A stretch of 42,522 nucleotides of DNA from a virus: positions 1-42,522 of IMG/VR virus record IMGVR_UViG_3300034355_000787; one strand, 5' to 3'. Positions 2,842 through 42,522 of this stretch are shown here, piece after piece. Below the pieces are notes generated by a model. That model searched no databases. It was not told where the DNA came from and saw only the letters and a list, made by a program, of their open reading frames with translations. The translations under genes and the position numbers were made by a program. Within the stretch, counting starts at the first letter, position 1. The number at the start of each line of letters is the position of its first letter.

Positions 2842-2910
2842 ATGAAATTTAAAAATTATATCGACGGAAGTAATGAGTTCATCTATTTTGGAGCAATACA
2901 TAAAACTTAA
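2842..2910 (+). CDS. Possible 22-residue peptide
   Basis: An ATG one base after the preceding TAA opens a 22-codon frame (MKFKNYIDGSNEF...) ending in TAA at 2908-2910. The ribosome site is weak (a GAG about 9 bases upstream), so expression would depend on coupling to the previous gene. It may be the remnant of a longer gene at the end of the operon. Confidence 0.25.
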   Translation: MKFKNYIDGSNEFIYFGAIHKT

Positions 2911-2938
2911 TGCCAAATCCAGTAGGAAGACTAAGTAA

Positions 2939-3223
2939 TCACTTCCCACACATCCCCAGTTCAAACATATCTTTAGTCTTGCCATCCTGTATCGTCTGCC
3001 ATTGCATATTGCTGGGGTCATCCGCACCCCCGCAAGCCAATGGCACAATATGGTCAATCACATAGCCTGGGCATCGGCCGTGATTGTTCCCATTCGATGG
3101 GCACGGATGTTCGCGCTTAAACGCATTCTTTTGAGCTTCGCTCCTATGTGCTTTTGCAAGCGCATGGAAACTACACCCTGCGACTAGCGGCAAGATTACA
3201 CAAAAAACAATAAGTTTACGCAT
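2939..3223 (-). CDS. Lipoprotein-type HNH nuclease-like protein
   Basis: The 94-residue product begins with a lipoprotein signal (residues 1-16, lipobox VAGC with Cys17). It continues with an HNH-type core: CPGYVIDHIVPLACGG, then DDPSNMQWQT and K(T)KD. The DHIVPL...NMQW pattern is that of small HNH endonucleases found in phages and bacterial exported proteins. The export signal implies that it acts in the periplasm or is held in a membrane, an unusual place for a nuclease. Cutting of incoming or leaking DNA, for example in superinfection exclusion, is speculation. It lies 1 base after the stop of 3225-3887 and is probably co-transcribed with it. Confidence 0.75.
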   Translation of the reverse strand: MRKLIVFCVILPLVAGCSFHALAKAHRSEAQKNAFKREHPCPSNGNNHGRCPGYVIDHIVPLACGGADDPSNMQWQTIQDGKTKDMFELGMCGK

Positions 3224-14742: not shown

Positions 14743-16221
14743 CTAGCGATTAACATTAATTAAGATATCGACTCTTTGTATTGCGCCAGCTAATTTGATA
14801 GCGCATTGTATAGGCGCGCCTATACGAGCATCACGGCTGATTTGGCTTTGGCTCGAAATTGGGGGCGCATATGTGTAGTACCCGGATTGCAGATTCTGGC
14901 CTGTCGCTAAACCTGGCAAAGATGGGCCATTCCAAATGCCTGGGGCTATCATGCCGTTGGCTACAGCCTGCGAAAACACGCTATTAATAGTATTGATAAT
15001 GGCGGTCATACCGGCATCGGTTTGGCCAATTTTGGGGCTTTGCGCTAACAGATTAAACACAGCTATTTGTACGGCATTTTGTAACCAGTCGAATGATTGA
15101 CGCTCATCCATGTAAAGCTGGTAAGACATCACCGCTTCTTGATAAATCGGCGTACCCGTTACGTAGTTAACATAAACGTTACAGCGCTTGGCTTGCAATG
15201 TATCCGCTTGAGTCTCGGTAATGGTTTCTGGTGTCACCCCCGGCAACGTCTTAAACATATAAGTAGGTAACGTATTGCTGCCTTCGAAATTTGTGCCCGC
15301 CCATAGTCCTGCTACTGACGCCATTTCATACGCATTTGTAGAGCCGTACGTTACAGCGCTGCGGTCGTATTGTAGGGTCTGCAGTCTAGTGGAAATATCG
15401 GTAGTGTAAGTAACATCTAATTCGCGTGAATCTTGGTCCGTCACAAACAAGACGCGGGAGATAGATGCCGTCTGAATGAATGCCGCTACATCAACTAATT
15501 CATCATCAGTCGGCATCGTAGAAGCTGCAAACAGCTCTATGTACCATGCGGATGAAATGTTATATAAAGCTTCAGTTGCTTCTAGCGGGCTTTCTGGCGC
15601 AAATCCTGGCACTGGAACATTTGCATTAGCAGCATTTAACTTAAGCTGTCCAGAGATATCAAATCCTGTCCCTTCGGGGGTGGCATAACCAACCAGAGAC
15701 AGCACGCCGGTAGTAGCGCTTGTGATGACAAACTGGCTGCCATTCCACGTACATGTCGCACCCGAAAGGCCAGCAGTAATAACCACGGCCACGCCATTAA
15801 GGTTGGTTTCGCCGCTAAAGTCTAAGCCTAGTAAATCTTGCGTGCTGCCGTCTACGTCAATGCTAAATGAGCCCGTGGTAATAGATGTCCAATTCGACAT
15901 TAATTGTTGTGATGCGGTCAGTATTCCGCCATTGATAAAGCCGGATGTTGCGGTTCGCAGCCAACGCCCTATTAAAACTTCACCGGGGACAGGATTTTGA
16001 CTAAAGTATAAAAGTGCTGCCAAATATTCAGGTGCGGCTGTGCCGAAATCAGTTGCCACTTCGGCTATATCTGTGTAACTTCTGAGGCGCTCAACACCGC
16101 TTATGATGTTGCTATCGCCTACTATTACGGGCAAACCAAAATTTCGAACAGCTGCGCCTTGAGGCGTTAAAGTGACATTAACATTGACTATACGAGATAC
16201 ATTTAAACCTTGTGCAGACAT
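14743..16221 (-). CDS. Contractile tail sheath protein (DUF3383 family)
   Basis: This 492-residue protein begins with LNVSRIVNVNVTLTPQGAAV and contains YTDIAEVATDFGTAAPEYLA (residues 45-64), FVTDQDSRELD in the middle, and QLYMDERQSFDWLQNAVQ in the C-terminal third, the DUF3383 sheath pattern. Its presence shows that the phage has a contractile tail. Position between the terminator and tube genes agrees. Confidence 0.9.
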   Translation of the reverse strand: MSAQGLNVSRIVNVNVTLTPQGAAVRNFGLPVIVGDSNIISGVERLRSYTDIAEVATDFGTAAPEYLAALLYFSQNPVPGEVLIGRWLRTATSGFINGGILTASQQLMSNWTSITTGSFSIDVDGSTQDLLGLDFSGETNLNGVAVVITAGLSGATCTWNGSQFVITSATTGVLSLVGYATPEGTGFDISGQLKLNAANANVPVPGFAPESPLEATEALYNISSAWYIELFAASTMPTDDELVDVAAFIQTASISRVLFVTDQDSRELDVTYTTDISTRLQTLQYDRSAVTYGSTNAYEMASVAGLWAGTNFEGSNTLPTYMFKTLPGVTPETITETQADTLQAKRCNVYVNYVTGTPIYQEAVMSYQLYMDERQSFDWLQNAVQIAVFNLLAQSPKIGQTDAGMTAIINTINSVFSQAVANGMIAPGIWNGPSLPGLATGQNLQSGYYTYAPPISSQSQISRDARIGAPIQCAIKLAGAIQRVDILINVNR

Positions 16222-30541: not shown

Positions 30542-30925
30542 CTAATTATTTGCGGGGTGATCGCCACATACAATGCATTCACCGATTCCGTGCGCGTCTC
30601 TAATTAGGTGGGGGCACGTATCATTCTCGGTCAGAGCATCGGCAACAAAGTTATCGATATGCGGAGGTATCGGCATCCAGCAAATTATCCCATCAATATT
30701 TCGGACATAACCATCTTTTGTGTCAACAGTCTTGTTATCAATAGAGTCCAGAGGATATTCTTGTATTACAAACGCATTAACATGCACTCCATACCGAACC
30801 CTAAAGACGCACGGCTGCATAAAGTACCTGCGGTATACAGGGCTATATGATTTGACTAAAACTGACTCCCCGTCTATCGGTAATATGTCGCGAGGCGAAA
30901 CCCACGGTTCTAAATATTTAGTCAT
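30542..30925 (-). CDS. DUF551 domain protein
   Basis: This 127-residue protein contains WVSPRDILPIDGESVLVKS (about 9-27) and later IDGIICWMPIPPHID, the DUF551 pattern, then CPHLIRDAHGIGECIVCGDH, a possible zinc site with two Cys pairs and His. I chose the ATG at 30925, which follows AAGGG by 5 bases, over the GTG at 30931. It is related to 740-1102 and 1409-2005 in the early operon, so paralogues lie in both early and late units. Confidence 0.7.
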   Translation of the reverse strand: MTKYLEPWVSPRDILPIDGESVLVKSYSPVYRRYFMQPCVFRVRYGVHVNAFVIQEYPLDSIDNKTVDTKDGYVRNIDGIICWMPIPPHIDNFVADALTENDTCPHLIRDAHGIGECIVCGDHPANN

Positions 30926-30973
30926 TTTCACCCTTATTCTTGTGTATGTATAGGATAATCTGCCATAAAGAGC

Positions 30974-34575: not shown

Positions 34576-34953
34576 TCAAGAGGATATTTCTCTGACTAAT
34601 CTATCGGCACGTGTTTGTAGATGCCCGTCGCATGGCACACCAAAGCACTCAATGTTTATCGCACATGCTTTACAATGACCATTCTCGCGCTCCCCCTTCG
34701 CTAACATCGCATACCCTGCTATGTCGTCCCAGTGGTCTGCGTGGTTCGGGTCTCCGCAGACGATGCGGGCCATCTTGAGACAAATCATCTCTAAAGCAAG
34801 GAAATGCGTTGACTTTATAGGTTCAACGTCTAATCGGCGCATTTTCTTTATTTCGTCCTGCATAAATCTTAAAATTGTAGTATGAAATAAGGATACCGCC
34901 TCATAATCCCCGTGCGTCTTTTCGCGTTCGTTTAATATTTCTCTAGTATCCAC
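34576..34953 (-). CDS. DUF6378-type phage protein
   Basis: This 125-residue protein shows ILNEREKTHGDYEAVSLFH near the N-terminus, then FLALEMICLKMARIVCGDP and DHWDDIAGYAMLA, a pattern of a widespread phage protein family (DUF6378). The Glu and Asp residues at these motifs resemble all-alpha NTP pyrophosphohydrolases, but no activity is established to my knowledge. The start is GTG, 6 bases after GGAG. The C-terminal part adds a Cys-rich segment (CKACAINIECFG). Its 5' leader is the two-motif repeat array. Confidence 0.7.
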   Translation of the reverse strand: MDTREILNEREKTHGDYEAVSLFHTTILRFMQDEIKKMRRLDVEPIKSTHFLALEMICLKMARIVCGDPNHADHWDDIAGYAMLAKGERENGHCKACAINIECFGVPCDGHLQTRADRLVREISS

Positions 34954-34976: not shown

Positions 34977-35317
34977 TGGTTTCTCATCTTTTACCTGGCT
35001 CGCAATATTATCTTGGTTTCTCATCTTGCTTGTGGCTCGCACACTTTTATGGTTTCTCATGCAAGTCTTGGCTCGCAAACTTATCATGGTTTCTCATCAA
35101 TCTCTTGGCTCGCAATCATGCACTGGTTTCTCATTCTTTGTGTGGCTCGCAAACTTATCGTGGTTTCTCATCCTGTGATTGGCTCGCAAAGTTTTAATGG
35201 TTTCTCATTATCTGTATGGCTCGCATTGCTGTTGTGGTTTCTCACTCCTAATTTGGCTCGCATTTTTTATCTGGTTCCTCAAGGCTACGTTGGCTCGCAA
35301 ATGTTTATGGTTTCTCA
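34977..35317 (-). repeat. Alternating two-motif array, period 37 bp
   Basis: Ten copies of motif A (plus strand TGGTTTCTCA, one copy TGGTTCCTCA) alternate strictly with nine copies of motif B (TGGCTCGCA). Between them are unique spacers of 9 bases (two of 8). A starts at 34977, 35014, 35050, 35087, 35124, 35161, 35198, 35235, 35272 and 35308; B starts at 34996, 35033, 35069, 35106, 35143, 35180, 35217, 35254 and 35291. On the minus strand, the direction of local transcription, they read TGAGAAACCA and TGCGAGCCA. The rightmost A contains the stop codon of the IS110-type gene. It is not a CRISPR: the repeats are too short and of two kinds. A function as iterons, protein-binding array or RNA array is open. 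Confidence 0.9.
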
Positions 35318-36133
35318 TTTCTCTTTTGGCTTAATCTCATGCGCATGACCCAATATCGCTATAGCATATGGTTTTGGGGGTGTTATACCTTTTATCCTTA
35401 GCGACATCTCCCAAAAATGCGATAAAAATATTTTAGCTGCATATCGCTCCGCCATTGCTTGTATATGTGCCGGCGGTAATTTACCTGCGCTATAATGCTT
35501 AAATGCGTCCGTATCTTTGCTATATTTTTTGTCTATTAAACATTGTGCCGCGCGGCCGGCATAGTCCCCGTTTTCGTTTTTAGCTACGTAATATGACTTT
35601 TTTTCTCTGTACAAATGCCCATACAATGCCGCCTCATTCCCGGATACTTTAACAAAAGATTGACCGATAAGCCATGCTAAACGTTTAAGGCTGCTTGACC
35701 AATTCGATTTTTCGCCTCGCTTACGCTTTTGGCCCGGTACGAGTCCGCAATATGACCACAGGTCGCCGCAAGACGCAAAACGCGTCGCATCACCTATATT
35801 CGCGCATAATCCGGCCGATAGCACGGGCCCAATTCCCACATTGGATTTAGCCCACGCACCTGCAGGTTCTTGGTCTGTGTATTTATCCAAAGCGCGCTTA
35901 ATCTGACTTTCTAATGTTTCCGACTGCTCGGCAGCCCAGTTAATAACGCTATGTGGCTCCTCCGTCTCGTTTAGCGCCCGCACTTGTCCATAGCTTCTGA
36001 TACGATTGTCTTGCATTTGATAATACAAGTCTACAAGATAACGCGCTTCTTTGTGTGACAAAGTTTTAGACGCATTAGCTAAATCTCGAGTCAGCTTAAT
36101 AACCGGCTCTAATCCAATTTCGAATTCTAACAT
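35315..36133 (-). CDS. Lone IS110-type C-terminal (Transposase_20) domain protein
   Basis: This 272-residue protein has a charged helical N-terminus and a Transposase_20-like domain at about 97-165: VGIGPVLSAGLCANIGD, then FASCGDLWSYCGLVPGQ and LKRLAWLIGQ. In IS110 transposases this domain follows an N-terminal DEDD RuvC-like nuclease; that nuclease is missing here. The segment that usually carries the catalytic Ser is basic (GQKRKRGEKSNWSSS) and not clearly conserved. It may be a DNA- or RNA-binding relative without recombinase activity. It lies between the replication-type gene and the 37-bp array, and its stop codon is inside the array. Confidence 0.75.
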   Translation of the reverse strand: MLEFEIGLEPVIKLTRDLANASKTLSHKEARYLVDLYYQMQDNRIRSYGQVRALNETEEPHSVINWAAEQSETLESQIKRALDKYTDQEPAGAWAKSNVGIGPVLSAGLCANIGDATRFASCGDLWSYCGLVPGQKRKRGEKSNWSSSLKRLAWLIGQSFVKVSGNEAALYGHLYREKKSYYVAKNENGDYAGRAAQCLIDKKYSKDTDAFKHYSAGKLPPAHIQAMAERYAAKIFLSHFWEMSLRIKGITPPKPYAIAILGHAHEIKPKEK

Positions 36134-36358
36134 TTATTCCCCTTTAATTTTTATACCCAGAAATTTTGCCATAACATCCTCATGGCCCGAAAACTCTTTT
36201 GCGCCTGCCTCAATAATTACATGCAGCTTGCTCTGTATAATCGGGTTTGTATAACGGCTTTTAGCAACCGGTATCGGGGGTGGTTTAAACGCCGCCGCAG
36301 CCATTTTCCCTCGCGCTCCAAAACCAAAATCATCGTCATCATGTTGCCAAGCCATCAT
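36134..36358 (-). CDS. Small protein between the replication-type and IS110-type genes
   Basis: This 74-residue protein starts MMAWQHDDDDFGFGARG and continues AAAFKPPPIPVAKSRY. It overlaps the stop of the upstream gene (GGGGGTGCATGATGA), so either of the first two ATGs may be used. The acidic patch and Pro-rich linker suggest an adaptor for a replication complex, but no family is recognised. It is one base from the start of the IS110-type gene. Confidence 0.55.
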   Translation of the reverse strand: MMAWQHDDDDFGFGARGKMAAAAFKPPPIPVAKSRYTNPIIQSKLHVIIEAGAKEFSGHEDVMAKFLGIKIKGE

Positions 36359-37623
36359 GCACCCCCGTATCTCGCTATCTCCCAGCGTCGCTGTAAATCC
36401 TCAAGCTTGCGCCTGCGCTCTGCATCTTGCACATCAACCTCAATGGCCGCAGGGGGCTCATAAACGGCATCAGGGACGTCAATACCAAGTTCTGGCGGTA
36501 TCTCTCCCCGAGCCTGCAAGCGGGCCAGCTGTGCGCCTGATTTTAGCTCGTAATGCTTCTTCTCACGCGCCTTAAGCTGCAAGTAGCCGTCTTTGCATTC
36601 ATCGCTGTACTTTTCATAACCAAACGGCATGCGCCACCCCCCAGATCGGATTAAAAGCATGAATCTATTCACAGCATGCTTAAAATTCTGCGTGCCTTGC
36701 CGATGTTCTGGGGTTGATAAGGCAAAATGTACTTGTGACCACAGCGTTTTGATATCGCCCACAGCCACTTTTGCTTTCAAAACTGTCCGCTCAACCGCGG
36801 CTTTTGCATATGCTAATTGTCTTTTGTTCAATTTAGATTCATCTTGATTAAAATTAACATCACCCCCGGTATTTTCTAAATAATCTACATTATTTGTATT
36901 ATTATTTATAATTTCTACCGTATTAATATCTCTATTATTAATGGATGTGGTCAAAATCGTCCGTTTATGCGATTTAATAGTTTCTTTTTTATGCTTTGCT
37001 TCATGCTCTATCCTCTCCCATTCCGCCATCAATTCATCATACTTTGCACTATTTATGGTCACATAGTGTCTTAGATGCCTGGGCGTTCTAACGATCAACC
37101 CTTTTTGCTCTAAAGCAATTACGATTGCATACGCCCCCTTCAGCGTCAGCCCTAATAAATTAGCCAGCTCTAGCTTAGGCACACTACACCATCCTTTCTG
37201 AGCGTTAGGTTTCCCTAGCGAAATCATATAAGCAAAATAAGAAAGTGCTACGCTCGCCTTGTTGCCGCCTGTGTAACTGTTCAAAAATTGTAACTTTCTT
37301 ATGTTAACGCTAAATTTTATATCTTCTTTACACCGAACAAACATTCGCTTCTTTCCGTACCACATGCCGAGCACCGTTTGTATTAATGACATACTCTTAA
37401 GTTGCTCCAACTTTCTATCAATGCTCTTTAAGCTACAGTTCAGATAATTGGCTAATTGCCGCCTAGTCCTTGCTATAACCCTGTCCGCACCTCTGACTAT
37501 TTTAGTATTGCTTACTTGATACTTAATAGCGCCGAAAAGAAGACTAGCGTCTATATCCCCGACCACGTCATTGACTACAGCTAACTGTTTAAAATTCACA
37601 AAACAAAATCCCTGAAAACTCAT
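36355..37623 (-). CDS. Winged-helix replication-initiator-type protein
   Basis: This 422-residue protein has two winged-helix-like segments: RTRRQLANYLNCSLKSIDRK (about 51-70) and SVPKLELANLLGLTLKGAYA (about 146-165). The second is followed by a wing with VRTPRHLRHYVTI. A polar Asn-rich linker and a helical C-terminal half follow. The architecture resembles plasmid and phage replication initiators (RepA or O-like), but I cannot name a family. GGGAG precedes the ATG. It heads the leftward replication segment. Confidence 0.6.
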   Translation of the reverse strand: MSFQGFCFVNFKQLAVVNDVVGDIDASLLFGAIKYQVSNTKIVRGADRVIARTRRQLANYLNCSLKSIDRKLEQLKSMSLIQTVLGMWYGKKRMFVRCKEDIKFSVNIRKLQFLNSYTGGNKASVALSYFAYMISLGKPNAQKGWCSVPKLELANLLGLTLKGAYAIVIALEQKGLIVRTPRHLRHYVTINSAKYDELMAEWERIEHEAKHKKETIKSHKRTILTTSINNRDINTVEIINNNTNNVDYLENTGGDVNFNQDESKLNKRQLAYAKAAVERTVLKAKVAVGDIKTLWSQVHFALSTPEHRQGTQNFKHAVNRFMLLIRSGGWRMPFGYEKYSDECKDGYLQLKAREKKHYELKSGAQLARLQARGEIPPELGIDVPDAVYEPPAAIEVDVQDAERRRKLEDLQRRWEIARYGGA

Positions 37624-38583: not shown

Positions 38584-39492
38584 ATGAGTAATAATGAGAT
38601 GACTGTGGTAAAGATTAACTCTTTATCAGAATTGGAAAAGATAGCAAATAGCATGGTTAAATCCAGGTTGTTTGGGGTAGAAAACTTTGACCAAGCCTTT
38701 TCGTTGATGATGATAGCAAATGCCCGTGGCATACATCCGGTTAAAGCTGCGATGGACTATCATGTCATTCAGGGTAGGCCCGCGCTTAAAGCGGACGCTA
38801 TGCTGGGGTACTTTCAGGAGTCCGGCGGTATTGTGCAGTGGAAAGTATATACTGATGCATGTGTTGTTGGGCTGTTTTCTCACCCCCGCTCTGGTCAAAC
38901 TGAGCCGGTGGCGATAGAATGGACTATCGAAATGGCCTCTAAAATTATGACCTATGAAAAAGGTAAGCAAATACCCTTATCTAATAAACAAGTTTGGAAA
39001 GATTACCCTCGGGCTATGTTGCGGTCTCGATGTATCAGCGAAGGTGTGCGTACTGTGTATCCTGGGATTGTTGGTGGTTTCTATACGGAAGAAGAGGTGT
39101 CTACCATAACGGAAAACGAAAGATTTAATAATGCCAAATCTGTAGTTTCGATTCAGCATCAAAAGTCTGAAAGAACTGTTATTCCAAGTGTTGATACTAC
39201 TAATGCGGAACCTTCTGTTAGTGATTTAGAGGATGAAACAAGAAGAAACATTTTGATTCAGTTCACAAGAGAGGCGGAGCCTATCCGTGATGAATATAGA
39301 ATGATGGACGCTGACGAGGGGTGCAATGGCAATGACTGGGTAGCTATCCATGACAAACTTATGTCTAATTGGCTAAATCTTTGCGATAGATATAAAAAAG
39401 AATACGAATGGTTTGTTGTACCGCAGAAATGGCAGGATGGGATGAGCAAAATGTTCGGGATTGAAGAAATAAAGGAGTTAATAAATGCATGA
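38584..39492 (+). CDS. recT: RecT-family single-strand annealing protein
   Basis: This 302-residue protein shows the RecT/Red-beta pattern: FDQAFSLMMIANARGIHPVK (about 37-56), YHVIQGRPALKADAMLGYFQ (64-83), then KDYPRAMLRSRCISEGVRTVYPG. It anneals complementary single strands in phage recombination. AAGGAG precedes the ATG. The usual YqaJ or Exo partner is not seen; the VRR-NUC nuclease and SSB are the other recombination proteins here. It overlaps the CsrA-like gene by 8 bases. Confidence 0.85.
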   Translation: MSNNEMTVVKINSLSELEKIANSMVKSRLFGVENFDQAFSLMMIANARGIHPVKAAMDYHVIQGRPALKADAMLGYFQESGGIVQWKVYTDACVVGLFSHPRSGQTEPVAIEWTIEMASKIMTYEKGKQIPLSNKQVWKDYPRAMLRSRCISEGVRTVYPGIVGGFYTEEEVSTITENERFNNAKSVVSIQHQKSERTVIPSVDTTNAEPSVSDLEDETRRNILIQFTREAEPIRDEYRMMDADEGCNGNDWVAIHDKLMSNWLNLCDRYKKEYEWFVVPQKWQDGMSKMFGIEEIKELINA

Positions 39493-39796
39493 GATGAAAA
39501 AGGTTTTGGGTAACCTGGTGTTAACTAGAGGAATTGGCCAAAGCATTATGATTGGTGATGAGATCGAAATTATGATCGGCAAATTTAACGGCAGTCAAGT
39601 AGTAATTGCTATTAATGCCCCAAAGCACATTGTTGTGCATCGCAAAGAGGTGTGGGAAAGAATTAAGGCTCAACAAAATGCTCGACAACATGACTGTGCT
39701 GATCATGCAGAATATCATATCGGGCGAGTTGGGGTGCGCATAGCGACTTGTGAAATGTGCGGATCAAGATGGAGTCCCGACGAGGATGAAGAGTAA
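39485..39796 (+). CDS. CsrA-like RNA-binding protein with zinc-type C-terminal extension
   Basis: This 103-residue protein has a full CsrA domain at residues 11-63: LVLTRGIGQSIMIGDEIEI, GSQVVIAINAPKHIVVHRKE, VWERI. Residues equivalent to E. coli CsrA Leu4 (Leu13) and Arg44 (Arg53), which contact GGA-loop RNA, are present. The C-terminal 40 residues carry C71, H74, H78, C89 and C92, a likely zinc site absent from standard 60-residue CsrA. CsrA blocks or stabilises mRNAs by binding GGA at ribosome sites, so a phage copy may rewire host or phage translation. AAGGAG precedes the ATG. Confidence 0.85.
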   Translation: MHEMKKVLGNLVLTRGIGQSIMIGDEIEIMIGKFNGSQVVIAINAPKHIVVHRKEVWERIKAQQNARQHDCADHAEYHIGRVGVRIATCEMCGSRWSPDEDEE

Positions 39797-40023
39797 TGTT
39801 TAGGAAAAATTTAAATTTATTGCAAGCATCTAGACTACTTGAGACTGGCGATTGCGATTATATTACTCGAGCAAATAGTTATGTAGATTGGCTTATTCTG
39901 GGCGATAAAGGATTGTTAGCTAGAGGCCCATCTAATATCAATTATGATGGGCCGGTATCTTACGATTTGAATTTAAGCCTATCTGACATTAGAGCTTATG
40001 ATTGGGAATGTAATTTTTTTTAA
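39796..40023 (+). CDS. Tad2/DUF2829-like small protein (tentative)
   Basis: This 75-residue protein starts with NLLQASRLLETGDCDYITR, has a middle with WLILGDKGLLARGPSN, and ends LSLSDIRAYDWECNFF. The layout (helix, basic strand, C-terminal sDIxAxDWe) resembles the DUF2829 proteins to which Tad2 belongs; Tad2 sequesters the signal nucleotide of the Thoeris defence. The match is by eye and short, so anti-defence function is a hypothesis. The start overlaps the CsrA-like stop (TAATG). Confidence 0.45.
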   Translation: MFRKNLNLLQASRLLETGDCDYITRANSYVDWLILGDKGLLARGPSNINYDGPVSYDLNLSLSDIRAYDWECNFF

Positions 40024-40041: not shown

Positions 40042-40287
40042 ATGCAATTTGAATGTAAAGAAACAATTAATGAACAGCCGGATATTCTACAAGAATTTTT
40101 AGAGTATAGGGAATCAGCAAAATTACTCAATATGGATCTGCCTATACGCTATGAATCTATTCCGCCGACCCGAAAATCAAAGTATAGTATAGCCGAATGC
40201 TCGCACTGCAAAGGATTAAATGCATTTGAAAATCCATTGCCAAAAAATTGTTGTCGTGTATGCGACTGGTGCGAAAGAGAGTTTTAA
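40042..40287 (+). CDS. Cys-rich small protein
   Basis: This 81-residue protein ends in a zinc-type cluster: CSHCKGLNAFENP, then CCRVCDWCEREF. The first half is helical and acidic. AGGA lies about 11 bases upstream. Function unknown; it precedes the first Gly-rich cassette. Confidence 0.55.
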   Translation: MQFECKETINEQPDILQEFLEYRESAKLLNMDLPIRYESIPPTRKSKYSIAECSHCKGLNAFENPLPKNCCRVCDWCEREF

Positions 40288-40302: not shown

Positions 40303-40614
40303 ATGAATAATTTTTGCAAAGTGTTTGGGAAAAGAATTGGCTCGGGCGCGGGCTATGGCTATGGCTCCGGCGACGGCTATAGCTATGGGTCCGGCGACGG
40401 CTCCGGCGATGGCTCAGGCTCCGGCTACAGCTATGGCGCCGGCTCCGGCGATGGCGATTGCTCCAGCTTGGGCTCCGGCGACGGCGATGGCGATGGGTCC
40501 GGCTGGGGCAAAGGCTATGGCGCGGGCGCTGGCTCCAGCTTGGGCTCCGGCCACGGCGCGGGCAACGGCGATGGCTCGGGCTATGGCTCAGACGATGGAT
40601 CCGGCCATGGATAA
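40303..40614 (+). CDS. Gly-X repeat protein, copy 1
   Basis: This 103-residue protein starts MNNFCKVFGKRIGSG and then alternates Gly with S, D, Y, A, W, N, C, K, L or H to the end (GSGHG). The head sequence recurs in four other genes at 41039, 41280, 41809 and 42176, which fixes the true frame although the other frames are also open. The DNA is an about hexameric GGC-NNN repeat, far GC-richer than the genome. Function unknown: Gly-rich alternation suggests flexible or condensate-forming protein, but this is inference. Confidence 0.65.
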   Translation: MNNFCKVFGKRIGSGAGYGYGSGDGYSYGSGDGSGDGSGSGYSYGAGSGDGDCSSLGSGDGDGDGSGWGKGYGAGAGSSLGSGHGAGNGDGSGYGSDDGSGHG

Positions 40615-40644
40615 GTGTGTTTTTATTAACAATTGGAGACAGAA

Positions 40645-41046
40645 ATGAAAGAAAATGAAATAGTAATTAATGGCGTAAAATATATAAAGCAAAATCAAGA
40701 GTTGACTGCAAATAGTATATACTCAAATTTTATAGGCGAGTATTGCATTGTTCGCAGCTATGGCGCTGGTGTGTTTTTTGGCGTGCTAAATGCAGTCGAA
40801 GATAACTATGCAGCTATATTATCGGACGCTAGACGCATACATTATTGGGATGATCATACAGCGGCGGCATGTACAGATTTAGCTTTATATGGCATCACCG
40901 AAAAGTCTAATTCGAGCAAAAGCAGCCGCGTTTGTGCAGCTGTCGACAACCAAGTTTTAATGCAAGTTATAGAAATTATCCCGTGTTCAAAAACAGCAAT
41001 TAACTGCCTGAGAAATTTTAGAGTTTGGACAGAAGGCCGTGAATAA
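40645..41046 (+). CDS. DUF6948-type protein
   Basis: This 133-residue protein contains GEYCIVRSYGAGVFFGVL (about 31-48), ILSDARRIHYWDD (63-75) and a C-terminal IEIIPCSKTAINCL, the pattern of a widespread small phage protein family (DUF6948) of unknown function. GGAG lies 6 bases before the ATG at 40645. It sits between Gly-X copies 1 and 2 and its end overlaps the GTG of copy 2. Confidence 0.75.
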   Translation: MKENEIVINGVKYIKQNQELTANSIYSNFIGEYCIVRSYGAGVFFGVLNAVEDNYAAILSDARRIHYWDDHTAAACTDLALYGITEKSNSSKSSRVCAAVDNQVLMQVIEIIPCSKTAINCLRNFRVWTEGRE

Positions 41047-41272
41047 TTTTTGCAAAGTGTTTGGCAAAAACATTGGCTATGGCTCGGGATCGGGCTGGGG
41101 CTCGGGCGCGGGCGATGGCTCCGGCTATGGCGCCGGCTATGGCTATGGCTCGGGCGCGGGCAAAGGCTCGGGCGACGGCTCGGGCTATGGCTCGGGCTAT
41201 GGCTCGGGATCGGGCTGGGGCTCGGGCGCGGGCGATGGCTCCGGCTCCGGCGATGGCTCCGGCCATGGATAA
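41039..41272 (+). CDS. Gly-X repeat protein, copy 2
   Basis: This 77-residue protein starts at GTG with VNNFCKVFGKNIGYG and continues as Gly-X repeats to GSGHG. The GTG lies in GAAGGCCGTGAA, a context repeated before copies 3 and 5. The start overlaps the DUF6948 stop by 8 bases. Segments of this copy are repeated within itself (GDGSGYG and GSGSGWGSGAG blocks), indicating internal duplication. Confidence 0.6.
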   Translation: MNNFCKVFGKNIGYGSGSGWGSGAGDGSGYGAGYGYGSGAGKGSGDGSGYGSGYGSGSGWGSGAGDGSGSGDGSGHG

Positions 41273-41279
41273 GAAGGCC

Positions 41280-41345
41280 GTGAATAATTTTTGCAAAGTG
41301 TTTGGGAGAGAAATTGGATCCGCCCCCAGATGGGGCGAAAATTAA
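41280..41345 (+). CDS. Truncated Gly-X cassette, copy 3 (head only, 21 aa)
   Basis: The same GTG context starts VNNFCKVFGREIGSAPRWGEN, then TAA. The head module is intact but the repeat is missing. Either it is a decayed copy or it shows that the head alone is kept as a unit. It starts 7 bases after the stop of copy 2. Confidence 0.45.
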   Translation: MNNFCKVFGREIGSAPRWGEN

Positions 41346-41367
41346 AGTAAAAAATTAAGGGGAAAAA

Positions 41368-41793
41368 ATGTCTGGCGTAAATAAAGCAATTTTATTGGGC
41401 AACATCGGGAAAGACCCCGAAATAAGGACTTTTCAAGACGGCGATCGAGTTGCTAACTTTAGCTTAGCGACATCGACCAAATGGAAGGATAAAGTTACGG
41501 GTGAGCAAAAAGAAGCGGTGGAATGGCACAATATAAGCGCTTTTGGTAAATTGGCTGCTATCTGCGAGCAATACCTTAATAAAGGTGACAAAGTATATAT
41601 TGAGGGTCATATAAAAACTGAAAAATATACCGATAAAGAAGGCGTTGTTAGATATAGCACTAAAATTATTATGGACAATATGCAAATGCTATCGAGTTTT
41701 AAAGGAGATGTGCGCTCAGATGGGGAAGATTCCACATTGCCGTCAAGCTCTAAGCTTTCCACTAATACCTTTGATGACGATATACCATTTTAG
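41368..41793 (+). CDS. ssb: Single-stranded DNA-binding protein
   Basis: This 141-residue protein has the SSB OB fold: VNKAILLGNIGKDPEIRTF, VANFSLATST, VEWHNISAFGKLA, YLNKGDKVYIEGHIKT, and the acidic tip DDDIPF used to recruit partners. AAGGGG precedes the ATG. It lies between Gly-X copies 3 and 4 and would serve with RecT in replication and recombination. Confidence 0.95.
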   Translation: MSGVNKAILLGNIGKDPEIRTFQDGDRVANFSLATSTKWKDKVTGEQKEAVEWHNISAFGKLAAICEQYLNKGDKVYIEGHIKTEKYTDKEGVVRYSTKIIMDNMQMLSSFKGDVRSDGEDSTLPSSSKLSTNTFDDDIPF

Positions 41794-41808
41794 GGGATGG
41801 AAAAAGAA

Positions 41809-42168
41809 ATGAATAATTTTTGTAAAGTGTTTGGGAAAAGAATTGGCTCTGGCAACTGCGATGGCTCGGGCTACAGCTATGGCGCCGGCGATGGCGATGG
41901 TGCGGGCTTTGGCTGGGGCTCGGGCGATGGCTCGGGCGACGGCTCGGGCTGGGGCGCCGGCGATGGCTATGGCTCCGGCGCGGGCAAAGGCGCGGGCTAT
42001 GGCTATGGCGCGGGCTCGGGCGACGGCTCGGGCTATGGCGCCGGCGATGGCTATGGCTCCGGCGCGGGCAAAGGCGCGGGCTATGGCTCGGGCGCGGGCA
42101 AAGGCGCGGGCTATGGCGCCGGCTATGGCTATGGCTCCGGCTCCGGCGATGGCTCCGGCCATGGATAA
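41809..42168 (+). CDS. Gly-X repeat protein, copy 4
   Basis: This 119-residue protein starts MNNFCKVFGKRIGSG, then GNCDGSGYSYGAG, and alternates Gly-X to GSGHG. GGA lies about 7 bases before this ATG; an ATG 12 bases further up would add MEKE. Its first approximately 80 bases are identical to copy 5, so one arose recently from the other. Internal repeats such as GYGYGAGSGDGSGYG occur. Confidence 0.65.
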   Translation: MNNFCKVFGKRIGSGNCDGSGYSYGAGDGDGAGFGWGSGDGSGDGSGWGAGDGYGSGAGKGAGYGYGAGSGDGSGYGAGDGYGSGAGKGAGYGSGAGKGAGYGAGYGYGSGSGDGSGHG

Positions 42169-42175
42169 GAAGGCC

Positions 42176-42457
42176 GTGAATAATTTTTGTAAAGTGTTTG
42201 GGAAAAGAATTGGCTCTGGCAACTGCGATGGCTCGGGCTACAGCTATGGCGCCGGCGCCGGCGATGGCGATGGTGCGGGCGATGGCGCGGGCAATGGCTC
42301 CGGCCACGGCGCGGGCAACGGCGACGGCTCGGGCAACGGCTCCGGCTACGGCTCGGGCGCCGGATCGGGATCGGGATGGGGCAACGGCTCAGGCTGGGGC
42401 CGGGGCTGGGGCTCGGGCGATGGATCGGGCCATGGCGATGGATCGGGATCGGGCTAA
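42176..42457 (+). CDS. Gly-X repeat protein, copy 5
   Basis: This 93-residue protein starts at GTG (GAAGGCCGTGAA context) with VNNFCKVFGKRIGSG and ends GSGHGDGSGSG. It starts 7 bases after the stop of copy 4. The end extends beyond the GSGHG seen in the other copies. Its 3' end is duplicated at the left edge of the window because the map is circular. Confidence 0.65.
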   Translation: MNNFCKVFGKRIGSGNCDGSGYSYGAGAGDGDGAGDGAGNGSGHGAGNGDGSGNGSGYGSGAGSGSGWGNGSGWGRGWGSGDGSGHGDGSGSG

Positions 42458-42522
42458 TTTAAAAATTTGAATTAGGCATACGGTTATTAAAAATGTTATT
42501 AAAAATAAATTTGGGGTTTAAA
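42396..42522. repeat. 127-bp terminal direct repeat (right copy)
   Basis: Identical to 1-127. It contains the end of Gly-X copy 5, the AT-rich leader, and GGGG as ribosome site of the gene at 128. Removing one copy gives the circular map. Confidence 0.95.

Follow-up and report, generated by a model that had tools for sequence, protein, structure and literature searches.

CsrA homologues on mobile elements

The CsrA dimer binds GGA motifs in mRNA leaders, with the result that ribosomes are blocked. Genes for such proteins on phages and plasmids have already been published (PMC7366521, PMC8450108, PMC9144972 and PMC12038007, in the passages drawn on here), and the mobile homologues are thought to seize post-transcriptional control of the host. 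The plasmid-encoded RsmQ binds GGA as well as host sRNA loops supplied as single-stranded DNA copies, and it changes how the host behaves (passages of PMC9928087), and RsmA represses cas genes, while phages carry RsmA homologues that have been proposed as possible suppressors of CRISPR-Cas (passages of PMC8450108). The expectation that mobile CsrA homologues can override host control thus has published support, in each case from proteins other than the one described here. Among the matches listed from the open-licence literature, as judged by title and the start of the abstract, we found no report of CsrA joined to a zinc-binding domain, and the words "cysteine", "zinc" and "fusion" are absent from the main text of PMC7366521.

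The gene considered here lies in a virus record of 42,522 nucleotides (IMGVR_UViG_3300034355_000787; the whole stretch is called the window), which has a 127-base direct terminal repeat and in which PHROG profiles identify terminase, portal and tape-measure genes. For the protein encoded at 14743-16221 (-), the nearest match is a hypothetical protein, so annotated, of a Bordetella phage (51%), followed by Burkholderia phage proteins at 46-47%, some of them annotated as tail sheath. Elsewhere in the window, a transposase-like protein (35315-36133 (-); PF02371 and phrog_4285, the latter annotated transposase) is encoded one gene away from a DnaD/replication-initiation-like gene (36355-37623), and a DUF6378 protein (34576-34953 (-)) has a Cys-rich C-terminal addition. 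Further small ORFs with CxxC pairs occur at 740-1102, 1118-1300, 2652-2840 and 40042-40287 (+) and at 30542-30931 (-), one of them two genes past csrA, so zinc proteins may be numerous in this phage.

The csrA gene, its neighbours and its CsrA core

The features of the locus, with the evidence for each, are as follows.

38584..39492 (+), upstream RecT-like ssDNA annealing protein (PF03837, phrog_561)
39474..39477 (+), Shine-Dalgarno-like GGAG, 7 nt before the csrA ATG and within the end of recT (sequence)
39485..39796 (+), CsrA-family gene whose 103-aa product (P0001) has an N-terminal extension and a Cys/His tail (ATG start)
39485..39514 (+), residues 1-10 (MHEMKKVLGN), before the first CsrA strand (translation; alignment)
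39515..39667 (+), CsrA domain core, residues 11-61 (PF02599; the model matches 5z38, 1vpz and 2bti in Foldseek)
39527..39529 (+), R15, equivalent to R6 of E. coli CsrA, numbered by alignment (invariant in alignments of 15 and 53 rows)
39641..39643 (+), R53, equivalent to R44 of E. coli CsrA, in the VHR motif (invariant in the same two alignments)
39668..39793 (+), C-terminal tail, residues 62-103 (42 residues), partly zinc-ribbon-like (AlphaFold2 model of 64-103 alone; sub-threshold L37ae profiles)
39695..39706 (+), first putative ligand pair, C71-x2-H74 (codons)
39749..39760 (+), second putative ligand pair, C89-x2-C92 (codons)
39796..40023 (+), downstream 75-aa ORF without a family match (TAATG junction with csrA)

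The end of the recT-like gene overlaps the csrA start by 8 nt, and these overlaps, together with a Shine-Dalgarno sequence of its own, give csrA an appearance typical of translational coupling; the ORF looks like a real gene. The first ATG is favoured over that of M4 because of its spacing from the Shine-Dalgarno sequence. A PF02599 scan of the window gave a single CsrA match in the whole record, and profile searches with the downstream ORF gave no family. This arrangement did not recur in the records that we searched: a scan of viral contigs for the window's RecT found no match, and the two phages in the phage collection with the closest RecT (48% identity over 59% of the query) lacked CsrA in the regions read, which were of 10.5 kb and 8.0 kb. 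Among 50 records, many of them fragments, out of the 80 found with the terminase, one had a CsrA match, and that fell below the family cut-off.

The window's CsrA might mainly time the expression of the phage itself, acting on its own operon and on other phage leaders. The leaders of csrA and of the next ORF contain four GGA each, whereas 62 leaders average 1.39, and one of these GGA lies within the csrA Shine-Dalgarno sequence. However, three of the 62 leaders reach four, by our own arithmetic close to the number expected from a Poisson distribution with that mean, and the folded csrA leader presents no clear GGA hairpin loop; we regard autoregulation as the principal role as improbable. Beside csrA at 40303-42522, and also at 1-97, is a family of Gly-rich repeat ORFs, each starting NNFCKVFGKRIGSG or a close variant, which surround ssb (41368-41793) and extend through the terminal repeat of the record. 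The repeat genes at 40303-42522 were considered as a CsrB-like GGA sponge and rejected, as ANGGA is too infrequent in them (3 occurrences over 1043 bases and 4 over 726, the latter about twice the mean of the whole + strand, which has 107 in 42,522).

The protein itself is a phage-encoded CsrA homologue, as had been predicted. It matches PF02599 over profile positions 2-52 of 53 with 65.6-66.4 bits (Pfam cut-off 27; E 3.8e-18), PHROG 9500 ("CsrA-like regulator") with an E of 6e-19, and the NCBIfam model PRK01712 with 76.9 bits (cut-off 73). The csrA equivalog TIGR00202 scores 64.2 bits, under its cut-off of 70.1; such a threshold is set for proteins of closely equivalent function rather than for the family, and we read the result as the mark of a divergent CsrA. 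In a full-length AlphaFold2 monomer model, built on 53 aligned CsrA sequences, residues 11-70 have block mean pLDDT values of 82-90, and all 12 PDB chains recovered by Foldseek at E<=0.001 are CsrA/RsmA entries, with target-normalised TM-scores of 0.72-0.92 for these top 12.

The proposal that residues needed for binding GGA-RNA are kept was borne out in part. R15 is unchanged, as is R53, which occupies the junction of strand 5 and the helix at the position of E. coli R44, a residue reported to be essential for GGA recognition (PMC7366521, in the passage cited). In contrast, alignment with typical CsrA places G16 at the position of E. coli R7. Ten residues precede strand 1, and Asn10 occupies the position immediately ahead of the domain, which is Met in most of the rows listed. 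The substitution of G16 for R7 and the added residues again point to a divergent CsrA. They could also be taken to indicate a decoy or dominant-negative protein, which would pair with host CsrA subunits or bind host CsrB-type RNAs, with mRNA repression weakened by the altered N-terminus beside strand 1 and by Gly16. The retention of R15 and R53 argues against such a protein, as does the statement in the relevant part of PMC7366521 that heterodimers of CsrA paralogues have not been demonstrated, and we consider it very improbable.

The Cys/His tail

The tail following the core contains the pattern C71-x2-H74-x14-C89-x2-C92, with H78 also present. A pattern of the form C..[CH]-(6-25)-C..[CH] arises in 3.5e-5 of random 40-residue draws at the composition of the window's presumed genes, and when the letters of the tail, which is Cys/His-rich, are shuffled, the paired pattern appears with a spacing of 8-20 in 0.8% and with a spacing of 14 in 0.07%, both tests having been devised after the motif had been seen.

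Modelling gave a confident CsrA core but a divided result for the tail. Folded alone and without an alignment, residues 64-103 gave an AlphaFold2 model with a mean pLDDT of 78, rising to 87-88 over 74-93, in which a short helix runs to residue 73 and is followed by strands at 75-79 and 85-89 and by a two-residue bridge at 95-96. The ligand pairs in this model fall just before strand 1, with C71 at the end of the helix, and at and after the end of strand 2, a placement that, as we read the model, resembles that of a zinc ribbon. In the full-length model, however, residues 71-103 are poorly ordered (pLDDT 52-66), and C71 and H74 lie within a single helix spanning 54-75. The tail-alone model recovered nothing significant in fold searches (best Foldseek E 0.35; best VIA-align Z 2.7), and the absence of a family in these searches is no evidence. 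The weak Foldseek and VIA-align matches include Pol III C11, RNA polymerase II chain I and the ATCase regulatory chain, which we take to be zinc-binding, and the further weak Foldseek matches include the small zinc-finger protein ZifS and chains of ribosomes or initiation complexes; WW domains appear in the same weak lists.

Profile searches likewise gave ribbon-like matches below the curated thresholds. The L37ae model of Pfam (PF01780) scored 16.1-18.7 bits on the tail (cut-off 21.9; E 0.012) and that of NCBIfam (PRK03976) 18.5-21.6 bits (cut-off 87), the latter with an E of 0.0015 that fell to 1.6e-4 when the 12 preceding residues were included. Other profiles matched about as weakly (phrog_4867, E 0.015; phrog_18378, E 0.016; DUF7296, E 0.031). 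The prediction of a zinc-binding tail is favoured by the four-ligand pattern and by the model of the tail alone and left in doubt by the sub-threshold profiles and the low confidence of the full-length model; on balance, we read the tail as a probable zinc ribbon with putative metal binding, and we do not assign it to the L37ae family.

The tail proved to be rare among CsrA relatives. In tblastn searches, CsrA relatives turned up in 34 of 50,697 phage records, always at less than 80% coverage of the query, and in 142 of 72,556 plasmid records, nine of which reached that coverage; the two of these nine that were examined (from Xanthomonas and Legionella) had no paired tail. To these we added relatives from genome contigs (the best 80 of 180, mostly Planctomycetota, Armatimonadota and Spirochaetes) and from viral contigs (the best 80 of 416), all 28 matches of a search of viral sequences weighted to the tail, and the best 80 of 167 from a search weighted to the tail of L262, a phage CsrA considered further below. 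After removal of three that lacked the R-x-E motif, the 280 CsrA ORFs reduced to 198 distinct ones, comprising 78 from genome contigs, 109 from viral contigs, 10 from phage, plasmid or chromosome records that carry annotation, and the one in the window. A paired four-ligand Cys/His tail was present in two of the 198, namely the window's CsrA and L262, so the tail is rare in this sample, which is biased in that the genome ORFs are mostly from the three phyla named and the viral ones are the best rows listed, and uniqueness is not implied. The tails of the other 196 vary in length and sequence, and four of these ORFs have at least two Cys without the paired pattern. One of the four, L269, is doubtful and was not counted; its Cys-rich tail is overlapped by an ORF in another frame and has no pair of C-x2-[CH] pairs. 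Other C-terminal arrangements were seen on viral contigs, including a CsrA extended at its C-terminus by a long segment in which KKGDYVSL occurs (L241, ORF from 2977) and a tandem CsrA-CsrA ORF (L004:4878-5192).

Direct searches for the tail gave the same picture. Against the phage collection, no tblastn match had an E below 5; the last 50 residues, scanned as a peptide against viral contigs, had no relative there; and the DNA pattern VHR..E..C-x2-[C/H-like]-x14-C-x2-CG, in this spacing only, matched no viral contig and one site in the window, the query itself. Scans of viral contigs may leave out records very near the window. With no homologue in the phage records or viral contigs, conservation lends the tail no support, and the search originally suggested, for the same extension on other phage CsrA proteins, did not find it in these collections, the tail of L262 being different. 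The concern attached to the original prediction, that the tail might be random low-complexity sequence absent from relatives, therefore applies in its second half: the tail is not of low complexity, and it is absent from nearly all relatives examined.

These observations bear on whether the protein is an ordinary phage CsrA with a dispensable appendage that serves stability or solubility only. The C-termini of CsrA proteins differ greatly from taxon to taxon, an additional C-terminal helix on the CsrA of a S. meliloti plasmid is believed to leave function undisturbed (PMC7366521, in the passages cited), and the diversity of the 196 tails without a paired Cys/His set is consistent with such a view. 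However, unlike those tails, that of the window has four spaced Cys/His ligands and, folded alone, is modelled with fair confidence in a ribbon-like form, and L262 is a further phage CsrA whose tail resembles a metal site. We thus consider a dispensable tail rather unlikely, although it deserves consideration.

Predicted function and comparison with known systems

We favour, with a probability of roughly 0.55, a functional dimeric repressor of GGA-containing mRNAs whose metal-stabilised ribbon adds a second contact. The window's CsrA would probably be produced together with the recombination genes and, as a CsrA-type dimer, would repress translation of mRNAs with GGA near their ribosome-binding sites. 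Host mRNAs, possibly including those of defence genes, would be the first targets, and perhaps its own operon as well; by analogy with RsmQ and with RsmA and its phage homologues, we infer the same kind of action on host control. The C-x2-H-x14-C-x2-C module would form a small, putatively metal-stabilised zinc ribbon after the C-terminal helix of CsrA, most likely stabilising the C-terminus and adding a contact to RNA, ribosome or protein on each subunit of the dimer; it could, as first suggested, also alter RNA choice or dimer contacts. In this picture the gene, its CsrA core, the retained arginines, the overlapping order of the genes and the ligand pattern are observed, whereas dimerisation, binding of RNA and of metal, the time of expression, the added contact and the targets are predicted.

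A more elaborate form of this regulator would be two-headed and metal-dependent, with the GGA grip of the dimer complemented by two ribbons docked on the ribosome, RNA polymerase or an RNase. Repression would then be stronger, or dependent on zinc or redox state, and the protein would outcompete host CsrA and escape control by host sRNAs; we consider this distinctly unlikely. As to the favoured repressor with a second contact, the putative metal site is compact and the protein small and easily expressed, and point mutants of R53, C71, H74, C89 and C92 would allow a clean test of whether phages add contacts to CsrA to override the host network.

The closest known systems are members of the CsrA/RsmA family, namely RsmQ, the CsrA proteins of Vibrio and Pseudomonas phages, and gp47 of Burkholderia phage JC1, with which the window's protein shares the core domain, VHR, the arginines and a mobile carrier (passages of PMC7366521, PMC8450108, PMC9144972 and PMC9928087; RsmQ and JC1 gp47 were compared by description only). 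Among the family members whose sequences were read, it stands out in its paired four-ligand tail, shared in form only by L262, in Asn10 and in having Gly for R7. For the tail, the nearest likeness is to the ribosomal protein L37ae (eL43; PF01780/PRK03976), whose profiles match it over equal lengths (residues 3-33 to 31-61, and 3-34 to 34-65). The spacing of L37ae, which we take to be C-x2-C-x14-C-x2-C, would put both ligand pairs of the tail in register. Unlike L37ae, the tail has His as its second ligand, scores below the curated cut-offs and has no ribosomal context.

L262 (IMGVR_UViG_3300006853_000025, 2890-3144) resembles the window's protein in being a phage CsrA with a four-ligand Cys/His tail and in directly following a DNA-metabolism gene, in its case an ORF that reads, from its sequence, as an ATP-dependent DNA ligase. 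Its tail is shorter, has the order C-x2-C-x8-C-x2-H and does not align confidently with that of the window, so the two were probably gained independently; were the two-headed reading true, the separate tail of L262 would mean that this solution has arisen more than once. What appears to be new here, in one sequence and one look-alike, is a predicted zinc-ribbon-like tail on a phage CsrA.
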